Positions 24,375 to 37,610 of a DNA stretch of 64,000 bases are shown piece by piece. A program made the position numbers and the translations under genes. Source of the stretch: Burkholderiales bacterium (GTDB taxonomy: Bacteria; Pseudomonadota; Gammaproteobacteria; Burkholderiales; SG8-41); contig JAIETP010000014.1 of NCBI GenBank assembly GCA_019744975.1, positions 1 to 64,000 on the forward strand, written 5' to 3'. The notes below the pieces were generated by a model. The model did no database searches, had not been told where the DNA came from, and saw only the letters and a program-made list of their open reading frames with translations. Positions within the stretch are counted from its first letter, which is position 1; the number at the start of each line of letters is the position of its first letter.

Positions 24375-25145
24375 TTATAAGCGGACCTCAATACCCCGCT
24401 GCGCCATACGCTCCTTGGCTTGGCGCACCGTGTATTCGCCAAAATGAAAAATGCTCGCGGCGAGCACCGCGTCGGCGTGGCCGATGGTAACGCCGTCGGC
24501 CAGATGGTCGAGGTTTCCGACACCACCGCTGGCGATGATCGGAATATCCAGCGCCGATGAAAACGCACTGGTCAGTTCGAGATCGAATCCGACACGCGTA
24601 CCGTCACGATCCATGCTGGTGAGCAGGATTTCGCCCGCGCCCAGCGCCTGCATTTTCTTGCCCCACTCCACCGCATCCAGTCCCGTGGCCTTGCGACCGC
24701 CGTGGGTATACACCTCCCAGCGCAAGGGTCCGTCTCCGGCAACACGTTTGGCGTCGACGGCGACGACGATGCACTGCGCACCATAACGGCCGCTGGCATC
24801 GGCAACGAGCTGCGGATTCTGCACTGCGGACGTGTTGATGCTGACCTTGTCGGCGCCGGCATTGAGCAGGCGGCGCACATCTTCCACCGAGCGCACGCCG
24901 CCGCCAACCGTCAGCGGTATGAACACTTGTGCTGCGACGGACTCGATGATGTGCAGGATCAGGCCGCGATCATCGCTGCTTGCCGTGATGTCGAGAAAGG
25001 TCAGTTCGTCGGCACCCTGGTCATCGTAGCGGCGCGCGATTTCGACCGGATCACCCGCATCCTTCAGCTCGACAAAATTGACACCCTTGACCACGCGGCC
25101 GGCGGTGACGTCGAGACAGGGAATGATGCGTTTGGCGAGGGACAT
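24375..25145 (-). CDS. hisF: Imidazole glycerol phosphate synthase subunit HisF
   Basis: '[56 protein letters not shown]'. Confidence 0.96.
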
Positions 25146-25152
25146 TGACGGC

Positions 25153-25234
25153 GTGAACGGGTGAACGGGTGAACGGGTGAACGGGTGAACGGGTGAACGG
25201 GTGAACGGGTGAACGGGTGAACGGGTGAACGGGT
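25153..25234. repeat. Tandem octamer repeat (GTGAACGG), about 10 copies
   Basis: Uninterrupted 'gtgaacgg' x10 from 25153 to 25232, immediately upstream of hisF. Confidence 0.95.
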
Positions 25235-25250
25235 ATAACCCCATCACTCC

Positions 25251-25313
25251 CCCTCTCCCCCGTTACCGGGGGAGAGGGCCGGGGAGAGGGGGCTCACTCG
25301 TTCACCCGTTCAC
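25251..25313. repeat. CCCTCTCCC/GGGAGAGGG palindrome plus inverted octamers (cgttcacccgttcac)
   Basis: ccctctcccccgttaccgggggagaggg, then ctcactcgttcacccgttcacttc. Confidence 0.8.
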
Positions 25314-34197: not shown

Positions 34198-34300
34198 GTG
34201 AACGAGTGAACGGGTGAACGGGTGAACGAGTAAAAGCACGCGAGCAACGCCAGCGCGATGGTTCTCAACCCGTTCACCCGTTCACTATTCACTCGTTCAC
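34198..34300. repeat. Inverted octamer arrays (gtgaacgR) bracketing about 36 bp
   Basis: gtgaacga gtgaacgg gtgaacgg gtgaacga ... cccgttca cccgttca ctattca ctcgttca. Confidence 0.88.
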
Positions 34301-34311
34301 CGCTTTCACGT

Positions 34312-35211
34312 TCACGCCTTTCGCATGATCTGCACAAACACTTCCTCCAGATCGGGCTGCATGATTTCCATTTCCTTGACAGCCACCCGCCCCTCGCGCA
34401 GCGCCGCCATCACCCGCTCCACCTCCGCGTATTCCGGGAGTGCCAGGCGGATCGCGCCGTCATCACGCCGTTCCGCGACCAGCGGCTCCAGTTGTGGCGG
34501 CAGTAAACCAGCCAGCCGCAGTTCGACATAACAGCCGGAATGCAGCCGCAGCAGGTTCTCTGTTTTATCCAGCGCGACGATACGGCCCTGTTTCAGCATC
34601 GCCACCCGGCCACACAGCGCCTCGGCCTCTTCCAGGTAATGCGTGGTCAGCACGATGGTGTGACCATCATGATTAAGACGGCGGATGAACCGCCACAGCG
34701 CCTGACGCAGTTCAACATCGACCCCGGCGGTGGGTTCGTCTAGCACGATCACCGGCGGCTTGTGCACCAGCGCCTGCGCCACCAGCACGCGGCGTTTCAT
34801 GCCGCCGGACAACGCGCGCATGTTGGTGTCGGCCTTGTCGCTCAAGTCGAGGTTGTCGATGACCTCGTCGATCCATGCGCGGTTGTCGCGCAGTCCGAAA
34901 TAACCGGACTGGATGGTCAACGCCTCGCGCACCGTGAAAAACGGATCAAACACCAGTTCCTGCGGCACCACGCCCAGTGCGCGCCGCGCCTCGCGATACG
35001 CGCCGTTGACGTCATGGCCCATGATGCGCGCCGTGCCGCTGCTCGGGCGCGTCAATCCGGCGAGGATGCTGATCAGCGTGGTTTTACCGGCGCCGTTGGG
35101 GCCGAGCAGGCCGAAAAATTCGCCCGGCGCGACACTCAGGCTGACGCCCGCGAGTGCCTGCAGGCTGCCGTAACGCTTGGTAACGTCGGTGACTTCGATT
35201 GCTGGGGTCAT
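34312..35211 (-). CDS. ABC transporter ATP-binding protein (YadG-like)
   Basis: GPNGAGKTT, 'LSGGMKRRVLVAQALVHKPPVIVLDEPTAGVD', 'LTTHYLEEAE'. Confidence 0.92.
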   Translation of the reverse strand: MTPAIEVTDVTKRYGSLQALAGVSLSVAPGEFFGLLGPNGAGKTTLISILAGLTRPSSGTARIMGHDVNGAYREARRALGVVPQELVFDPFFTVREALTIQSGYFGLRDNRAWIDEVIDNLDLSDKADTNMRALSGGMKRRVLVAQALVHKPPVIVLDEPTAGVDVELRQALWRFIRRLNHDGHTIVLTTHYLEEAEALCGRVAMLKQGRIVALDKTENLLRLHSGCYVELRLAGLLPPQLEPLVAERRDDGAIRLALPEYAEVERVMAALREGRVAVKEMEIMQPDLEEVFVQIMRKA

Positions 35212-35244
35212 TGCTGCGGTCGGCGGGTGAACCCGCGCAACACT

Positions 35245-35526
35245 TTATTCCGCGCTCACGATTTCCGTGACGCCGTAGAGCTTTGCCAGGCTGGTGAGAT
35301 TGTCCGGAAGATTGACGTAACGAATGCGGCGGTTGGCGGCAAGCGCCGCGCGACGCCATTCAAACAGCAGGCTGACCGCGGCGGAATCGACTTCAGTGAC
35401 GCCGGAGAGATCCAGCGTGGTTTCCTGTTCCGTAAAGAGCCGCAGGCCGTCCTCGCGCAGCGCTAGTGCGTTTTCCAGGTTGACGGCGCCTTTCAGCGTA
35501 CAGCGCCCCTTGTTGCATTCAATCAT
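35245..35526 (-). CDS. mlaB: STAS domain protein, MlaB-like
   Basis: 'LFTEQETTLDLSGVTEVDSAAVSLLFEWRRAA'; position downstream of mlaC. Confidence 0.8.
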   Translation of the reverse strand: MIECNKGRCTLKGAVNLENALALREDGLRLFTEQETTLDLSGVTEVDSAAVSLLFEWRRAALAANRRIRYVNLPDNLTSLAKLYGVTEIVSAE

Positions 35527-35536
35527 GGGCAGCAGA

Positions 35537-36163
35537 TCATTTGACAGACTGCTGCGCCATCAGCGTGCGGTTTTTGTCGCGCAGGGTCTTGATCAGACCA
35601 TCCACGCCGTTTTTCTGGATCTCGGTGTTGAACGTCGTGCGATAACTCTCGACCAGACTGATGCCGCCGATCTTGACGTTGTAGACTTTCCAGCCGGAAT
35701 CGGTTTTTTCCATGCCGTAATCGACCTGCACCGGTTCACCGCCGCCGGACTGTCGGACCAGCGAACGAACCAGCACGTCAGTGTCATCGGCCGCCAGTTT
35801 CAGCGGGCGGTATTCGATTTTCTGATCCTTGTAGAGCAGCAGCGATGCGGTATAGGTCTGCACCAGCAGCGCGCGGAATTCCGCAACCAGCGCCTTGCGC
35901 TGCTCGGGATTCGCAGCACTCCAGTTTTTGCCCACCGCCAGTTGCGCCATGCCGGCAAAATTGAAATGCGGCGCGATCCTGCTCTCGATCAGTTCGCGCG
36001 CTTTTTTCTGATCACCGGCCTGGATCGCCTTGTCGTTGCGCAACGCCACCAGCACTTCGTCGGTGACGCTGCGTGCCAGCACATCGGGTGCGATCATCGC
36101 CTCAGCCGCATAAGCAGGCCAGGCAAATAATGAAAATATCAATAAAATCAAGTATTTATGCAT
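35537..36163 (-). CDS. mlaC: Phospholipid-binding protein MlaC
   Basis: MHKYLILLIFSLFAWPAYAAE signal; 'ESRIAPHFNFAGMAQLAVGKNWSAANPEQRKALVAEFRALLVQTY'. Confidence 0.92.
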   Translation of the reverse strand: MHKYLILLIFSLFAWPAYAAEAMIAPDVLARSVTDEVLVALRNDKAIQAGDQKKARELIESRIAPHFNFAGMAQLAVGKNWSAANPEQRKALVAEFRALLVQTYTASLLLYKDQKIEYRPLKLAADDTDVLVRSLVRQSGGGEPVQVDYGMEKTDSGWKVYNVKIGGISLVESYRTTFNTEIQKNGVDGLIKTLRDKNRTLMAQQSVK

Positions 36164-36197
36164 ATATCGCTCCGCACTCATCATTCATCACTCATCA

Positions 36198-36352
36198 TTA
36201 TTTTTGCGCCGGCGCCCCTTCAGCCGCCTTATTTTTTAGCCGGCGCCCCTTCAGCCGCCTTATTTTTTAGCCGGAGAACCTTCGGCTGCCTTATTTTTTA
36301 GCCGGAGAACCTTCGGCTGCCTTATTTTTTAGCCGGAGAACCTTCGGCTGCC
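36198..36352 (-). repeat. Five tandem 31-bp copies of the mlaD 3' end including its stop codon
   Basis: Units at 36322..36352, 36291..36321, 36260..36290 (identical), 36229..36259 and 36198..36228 (diverged): ttattttttagccggagaaccttcggctgcc. Confidence 0.96.
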
Positions 36353-36795
36353 TTATCAAACAGGAACTGACTGATCAGTTTTTCCAGCACCACCGCCGAC
36401 TGGGTCAGCCGGATATTATCGCCGGCCTTCAGCATCTGGTCGTCACCACCGCCCTCGAGCCCGACGTACTGCTCACCAAGCAGGCCGGAGGTCAGGATCG
36501 ACGCCGTGGTGTCCTTGGGAAATTTGTAGCCCTGATCAACGGCCAGGGTTACCTTGGCGGTAAACCGTTCGTTGTTGAACGTGATTGCGGTCACGCGACC
36601 GACGACCACGCCGGCGCTCTTGATCGGCGCGCGCGGCTTCAGGCCCCCGATGTTGTCGAAGTTGGCGGTGATCTGATAGGTCTCGCCGCCACCCAGGCTC
36701 GACATGTTGCCGACCTTGAATGCCAGGATCACCAGCGCGGCTACTCCCGCGACCACGAACAGACCCACCCATAAATCCAGCATTGAACGTTCCAT
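36322..36795 (-). CDS. mlaD: MlaD-type lipid-asymmetry substrate-binding protein (MCE domain)
   Basis: 'DLWVGLFVVAGVAALVILAFKVGN', 'YQITANFDNIGGLKPRAPIKSAGVVVGRVTAI'. Confidence 0.94.
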   Translation of the reverse strand: MERSMLDLWVGLFVVAGVAALVILAFKVGNMSSLGGGETYQITANFDNIGGLKPRAPIKSAGVVVGRVTAITFNNERFTAKVTLAVDQGYKFPKDTTASILTSGLLGEQYVGLEGGGDDQMLKAGDNIRLTQSAVVLEKLISQFLFDKAAEGSPAKK

Positions 36796-36815
36796 AATTA
36801 AGCACCTTTGTAAAT

Positions 36816-37610
36816 CTAAATACCTCTGAACATAAAGGAGGTCAGAATGAAATCCAGAGCCAGTACCGCCAGCGACGAAGTTACCACGGTGCGCGTCGTG
36901 GCGCCCGAAACGCCCTCTGCGGTCGGCGGCGCGTCATAACCCTCGAACAATGCAATCCAGGTAATGGCGACGCCGAACACAAAACTCTTGATCACGCCGT
37001 TGACGATGTCCTCGCGGACATCGACCGCGCTCTGCATTTGTGACCAGAACGAACCCTCATCGACGCCGATCAGCACCACGCCGACGACATAACCGCCGAA
37101 CACGCCCATCGCGCTGAACATCGCCGCCAGAAGCGGCATCGACAACACGCCGGCCCAGAACCGCGGAGCCACCACGCGCGCGATCGGATCGACCGCCATC
37201 ATTTCCATCGCCGACAGCTGTTCGGTGGCCTTCATCAGGCCGATCTCGGCGGTCATCGCCGAACCGGCGCGGCTGGCAAACAGCAGCGCCGACACCACCG
37301 GCCCCAGTTCGCGCACCAAAGACAGTGCGACCAGCACACCCAGCGCCGATTCGGAGCCGTAGGTAGTCAGCGTCTGGTAACCCTGCAGGCCGAGCACCAT
37401 GCCGACAAACAGCCCGGACACCAGGATGATCACCATCGACAACACCCCGGTGTAATAGAGCTCGCGAATGATCAGCCGCGGCCGCGCGAAGCTGGTCCCG
37501 GAATGTGCCAGCGTCAACCCGATGAAACGCGCCGCGTAACCGAGCCGCAGTACATTGTCGATGGCATTGGCGCCGATGCTGCGCAGCGAAGGCAGGGTTC
37601 TATGCGGCAT
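36816..37610 (-). CDS. mlaE: MlaE permease
   Basis: '[32 protein letters not shown]', '[31 protein letters not shown]'. Confidence 0.95.

Follow-up and report, generated by a model that had tools for sequence, protein, structure and literature searches.

The 3′ end of mlaD, stop codon included, is repeated head-to-tail five times as a 31-bp unit in the 64-kb window (the whole stretch of DNA analyzed here), and we conclude, with a probability of about 0.78, that the array is a near-neutral, lineage-specific minisatellite that grew by slippage. TRF placed the array at 36198-36356 with a period of 31, 5.1 copies and 94% matches. Its score of 234 is the top TRF score in the window; when the whole window was simulated 60 times with a first-order Markov model, scores reached 67 at most. 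The five-fold repeat of the mlaD stop-codon region described in the initial annotation is correct. On the minus strand, which is the sense strand of the operon, the units run from 36354 to 36200 in the order A-A-A-B-B' (Table 1), the three identical and two diverged units of that annotation. Each unit holds the final ten mlaD codons and the first base (T) of the stop, and the TAA stop overlaps the AAG that opens the following unit. Types A and B mismatch at 5 of 31 bases, four of them at third codon positions (probability about 0.045, binomial, p = 1/3), and in B' the sequence GCGCAA replaces the GCTAAA of B, a change from Lys to Gln if read. The ending AAEG(S/A)PAKK-stop that had been claimed for every unit is present in units 1-4, while the last unit reads AAEGAPAQK-stop. 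Unit 1 is the sole translated unit and always terminates MlaD because every unit brings its own stop; the remaining four extend the mlaD-mlaC gap, inserting an extra 124 bp between the two genes. A whole-genome search found the 31-bp unit nowhere else in the genome, the other matches being to the adjacent 7-bp repeat, and a dispersed element was rejected because the unit is present at mlaD only.

Table 1. Repeat units, flanking genes and other repeat elements. Positions are those of the window unless a contig (C) of the G000 genome is given.
Feature	Position	Strand	Description and basis
Unit 1, type A AAGGCAGCCGAAGGTTCTCCGGCTAAAAAAT	36324..36354	-	Translated mlaD end + T of stop codon; sequence, TRF
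Unit 2, type A AAGGCAGCCGAAGGTTCTCCGGCTAAAAAAT	36293..36323	-	Identical to unit 1; non-coding; sequence, TRF
Unit 3, type A AAGGCAGCCGAAGGTTCTCCGGCTAAAAAAT	36262..36292	-	Identical to unit 1; non-coding; sequence, TRF
Unit 4, type B AAGGCGGCTGAAGGGGCGCCGGCTAAAAAAT	36231..36261	-	Non-coding; 31/31 identical to translated G020 unit
Unit 5, type B' AAGGCGGCTGAAGGGGCGCCGGCGCAAAAAT	36200..36230	-	Non-coding; stop TAA at 36200-36198; sequence
mlaD	36322..36795	-	157 aa, ending DKAAEGSPAKK-TAA; Pfam PF02470 MlaD, 80.7 bits
GTGATGA-type 7-bp repeat TGATGAGTGATGAATGATGAGTG	36175..36198	-	Between array and mlaC ribosome-binding site; sequence
mlaC	35537..36163	-	Pfam PF05494 MlaC, 186.7 bits
GTGAACGR inverted pair	34198-34231 with 34270-34315	+ with -	
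GTGAACGR inverted pair	25148-25234 with 25298-25313	+ with -	
GTGAACGR elements elsewhere, among others	G000 C1:85836-85945, C3:92954-93077, C7:178922-179074, C12:68021-68106, C17:44212-44364		
Four PF05635 genes	G000 C24:5270-5703, C9:55407-55712, C7:129669-129986, C20:31589-31882		23S_rRNA_IVP, four-helix bundle

The neighbors of the array form an mla operon by Pfam (MlaE, MlaD, MlaC, an ABC ATPase and STAS_2), arranged mlaF-mlaE-mlaD-mlaC-mlaB on the minus strand, and MlaD is 80-96% identical to its counterparts in 20 of 20 congeners. The conserved MHK/MNK start of the relatives indicates that mlaC probably begins at MHKYLIL (ATG 36163-36161), behind a GGAG; a longer mlaC frame opens at 36184. 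Across the genus, the mlaD-mlaC spacing ranges from -4 to about 150 bp, and the first long reading frame after the mlaD stop opens at distances of -4 to 137 bp. A stretch resembling the GTGATGA-type 7-bp repeat also occurs in the single-copy relatives G005 and G009. The mlaD-mlaC junction of G018 is filled by TAATTGG/TAACTGG tandem repeats and that of G005 by GTGATGA-type repeats, both unrelated to the 31-bp unit. With close relatives carrying differing tandem arrays at this position, the junction seems to collect repeats.

We compared the mlaD ends of 21 genomes of the genus, one genome per species and all with mlaD, and counted five units in the species analyzed here (G000), two in G020 and one in the other 19. 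A motif search of 74 family genomes recovered no further arrays. Counts of 5, 2 or 1 are at variance with a fixed copy number in relatives, which the initial annotation had named, together with no effect on expression, as a refutation, and they agree with its proposal that copy number can change without altering the MlaD C-terminus, as every unit holds the mlaD ending. The G020 MlaD is 96% identical to MlaD here, and its first (coding) unit equals unit B at all 31 of 31 bases; its second unit has drifted from GCG to GTG (Ala to Val) and from the stop TAA to CAA. The match of the non-coding unit B to a translated unit in G020, together with the third-position bias of the A/B differences, directly supports the earlier suggestion that the diverged units once coded to the extent that a diverged unit here corresponds to a coding ending, and a unit sequence that is translated in one lineage can, on the predicted frames, lie outside the coding sequence in another. 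The mlaE-mlaD DNA tree places G000 and G020 as sisters (support 91/96), so that one duplication in their ancestor is enough; the mlaC tree did not resolve the relationships of these species. Two features of a minisatellite or VNTR, head-to-tail units of about 10-100 bp (here 31 bp) beyond chance and a copy number that differs between relatives, describe this locus, and by the criteria that could be applied the array is a minisatellite.

As to its origin, the final 31 bp of mlaD, including the stop, would have been duplicated in tandem in the common ancestor of G000 and G020, probably by slipped-strand mispairing of the out-of-frame TAA in GA-TAA-G (Asp-Lys) with the stop TAA 31 bp on (ATAA...ATAA). 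Single-copy G018 has ATAA twice at exactly this 31 bp spacing, one being the stop codon and the other lying in GA-TAAG (Asp-Lys, out of frame). Because the match is just 4 bp and G018 also shows matches of this length with periods of 18 and 15, the seeding step is one that we infer. With the first unit always ending the protein, additional copies would only lengthen the untranslated RNA that separates mlaD from mlaC, and they would have been gained and then have diverged with little effect on fitness because the junction tolerates length change. Type A is now the coding type in G000, and its three identical units point to a recent amplification. The distal units decay in both species: the last unit of G020 has neither its stop (CAA) nor the original Ala, and the last unit here has the Lys to Gln change.

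The relationship between types A and B is less simple than a single line of descent. At fourfold sites, mlaD differs from G020 at 25 of 82 positions (30% divergence) and from G018 at 22 of 81. That unit B is unchanged across two species despite this divergence would be unexpected if B had been non-coding since the split; B may have been coding until recently, or alleles may have been exchanged. Because A keeps the ancestral GCC where B has the derived GCT, and because B is unchanged between the diverged species, A does not seem to have arisen from B by plain descent, and allele exchange or a formerly longer array likely underlies the A/B pattern. Recombination mapping did not locate a donor of type A: nucleotide identity to G005, G018 and G020 is ~87% along the region, and the fourfold differences to G020 and G018 are alike.

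An alternative to a near-neutral minisatellite is that the array serves as a rheostat, with copy number tuning the expression of mlaC (and mlaB) via mlaD-mlaC spacing, mRNA structure or decay. The added 124 bp separate genes that are read in the same direction within one operon, copy number differs among the species, and functional repeats between co-regulated genes are known: the 53-77 bp MIRUs in the senX3-regX3 intergenic region have reported promoter activity (PMC4213456). We nevertheless consider this role unlikely, as mlaD-mlaC spacing is unconstrained in the genus, the array is absent in 19 of the 21 congeners and the distal units decay. Folding of the array-region mRNA is on a par with that of shuffled controls (z = -0.01), on which basis a special RNA structure was rejected, and no promoter is predicted inside the array, nor any sigma-70-like site in 35200-37000. 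There is thus no sign of a control function for the array; the spacing, folding, promoter and decay results give no support to the tuning of mla mRNA put forward in the initial annotation. If copy number altered mlaC output, outer-membrane lipid transport would have a simple dial that mutation can turn, and nothing here indicates so. Similarly unlikely is an extended version, in which the array is a self-renewing gene end: the units, each with a full C-terminus and its stop, would serve as a reservoir, loss, gain or recombination of units would change which of them encodes the MlaD tail, and the length of the spacer would tune the output of mlaC. Tandem repeats covering stop codons numbered 6 on G000 contig C1 as compared to 2.9 expected (P = 0.06), and enrichment in three relatives was likewise not significant. 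A genome-wide tie of tandem repeats to stop codons was rejected on these four contigs, 0.65 Mb in total, made up of the rest of one G000 contig and parts of the three relatives.

The unit length of 31 is not divisible by 3 and there is a stop in each unit, so that a frameshifted reading ends in a later unit. Perhaps the array buffers frameshifts, a slip either way in the A6 tract still ending on the native KAAEGSPAKK tail; in G000, the loss of one A yields a 10-aa extension and the gain of one A yields 21 aa, both ending KAAEGSPAKK. Such fail-safe termination is very unlikely to account for the array, as the effect follows automatically from array geometry. In the single-copy congeners G018 and G005, stops are reached even sooner (2-6 codons, all frames), so the array gives no clear gain in frame safety. 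The genome is a 44-contig draft in which the 93 bp of identical A units are open to short-read miscounting, but the creation of the repeat or its copy number by the assembler, a further refutation named at the outset, is hard to credit: the array contains diverged as well as identical units, and a pure artefact is ruled out because G020, a separate assembly, carries a two-copy unit at the same locus. Least probable is an antisense terminator, in which a 9-bp hairpin of type A, with CCTTATTTTTT after it on the plus strand, stops antisense transcription; two plus-strand terminator-like sites are predicted within the array and the A unit has an antisense folding energy of -11.9 kcal/mol (z = -3.2; B, -6.6), but no known plus-strand gene reads into the array, this 9-bp hairpin is formed neither by B nor by the units of G020, and the T tract is not directly after the stem. 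Read as a near-neutral minisatellite, the array is a clean example of a repeat growing across a stop codon without harm to the gene.

Tandem arrays of 7-8 bp units are abundant throughout the G000 genome. GTGAACGR octamers gave 110 octamer-pair matches in the genome and 0 in a reversed-pattern control, and their arrays are mostly inverted pairs in which tandem octamers face a CGTTCAC array across a short core. A CCCTCTCCCC...GGGGAGAGGG palindrome commonly occupies this core, and one core consists of a complete 23S_rRNA_IVP gene (PF05635). The genome has four PF05635 genes: the three whose ends were read are flanked on both sides by tandem 7-8 bp arrays, with a unit that differs from gene to gene (GTGAACGR, GTGATTAG-type and TCAATCC-type), and next to the fourth, on the one side read, is a TCATCAC-type array; gene-free GTGAACGR versions are numerous. 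The arrays and PF05635 genes look like a mobile element family, and the gene-free versions suggest gene-less, non-autonomous copies, an association that looks more interesting than the mlaD array. For a hisF-like frame in the window (24375-25247, minus strand), an opening is also available 5′ of the likely start, inside the octamer array, so that an automatic start call there would add a repetitive N-terminus. Two longer tandem repeats on contig C1 have GCGGCTCGGGTTACAGCCGC-like units, one spanning a predicted stop with 1.9 copies of 103 bp (C1:325678-325873) and one in non-coding DNA with 2.4 copies of 68 bp (C1:91757-91917).

Several known repeat systems resemble the mlaD array in part. REP and BIME elements form a conserved stable hairpin in the transcript, whereas the mlaD array folds like shuffled sequence, and units A and B fold differently. 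MIRUs are dispersed in the mycobacterial genome. Like the mlaD units, they occur in tandem between two genes of the same operon and orientation and vary in number and type, in their case between strains (PMC4213456). The mlaD unit, in contrast, is copied locally from the end of mlaD itself, with no promoter-like site predicted, and the whole-genome search placed it at one site rather than at several loci. The TAACTGA heptamers of Beggiatoaceae, found at 169 sites and mostly just upstream of start codons, are likewise tandem repeats at gene junctions, and some of their arrays overlap the upstream stop and give stops in three frames (PMC4679880); they are a 7-bp family, whereas the mlaD unit is 31 bp long and occurs at a single site. 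The tandem repeats of Borg elements also can have their first unit within a gene end, evolve fast and are absent in close relatives, but they are perfect and pervasive (PMC9879509), whereas the mlaD array is single and partly diverged. We found no account in the literature of a bacterial stop-codon region repeated in tandem, and the literature naming mlaD, mlaC and "tandem repeat" together holds a single mention of each, in lipooligosaccharide work. The closest likeness is to bacterial minisatellites or VNTRs, which arise by slipped-strand mispairing and share with the mlaD array short head-to-tail units, a copy number differing between relatives and a mix of identical and diverged units. The difference is that the mlaD unit straddles a stop codon, with one unit coding and the others untranslated copies of the ending, and this stop-codon-spanning position is a variant of the minisatellite, not a new kind of system.
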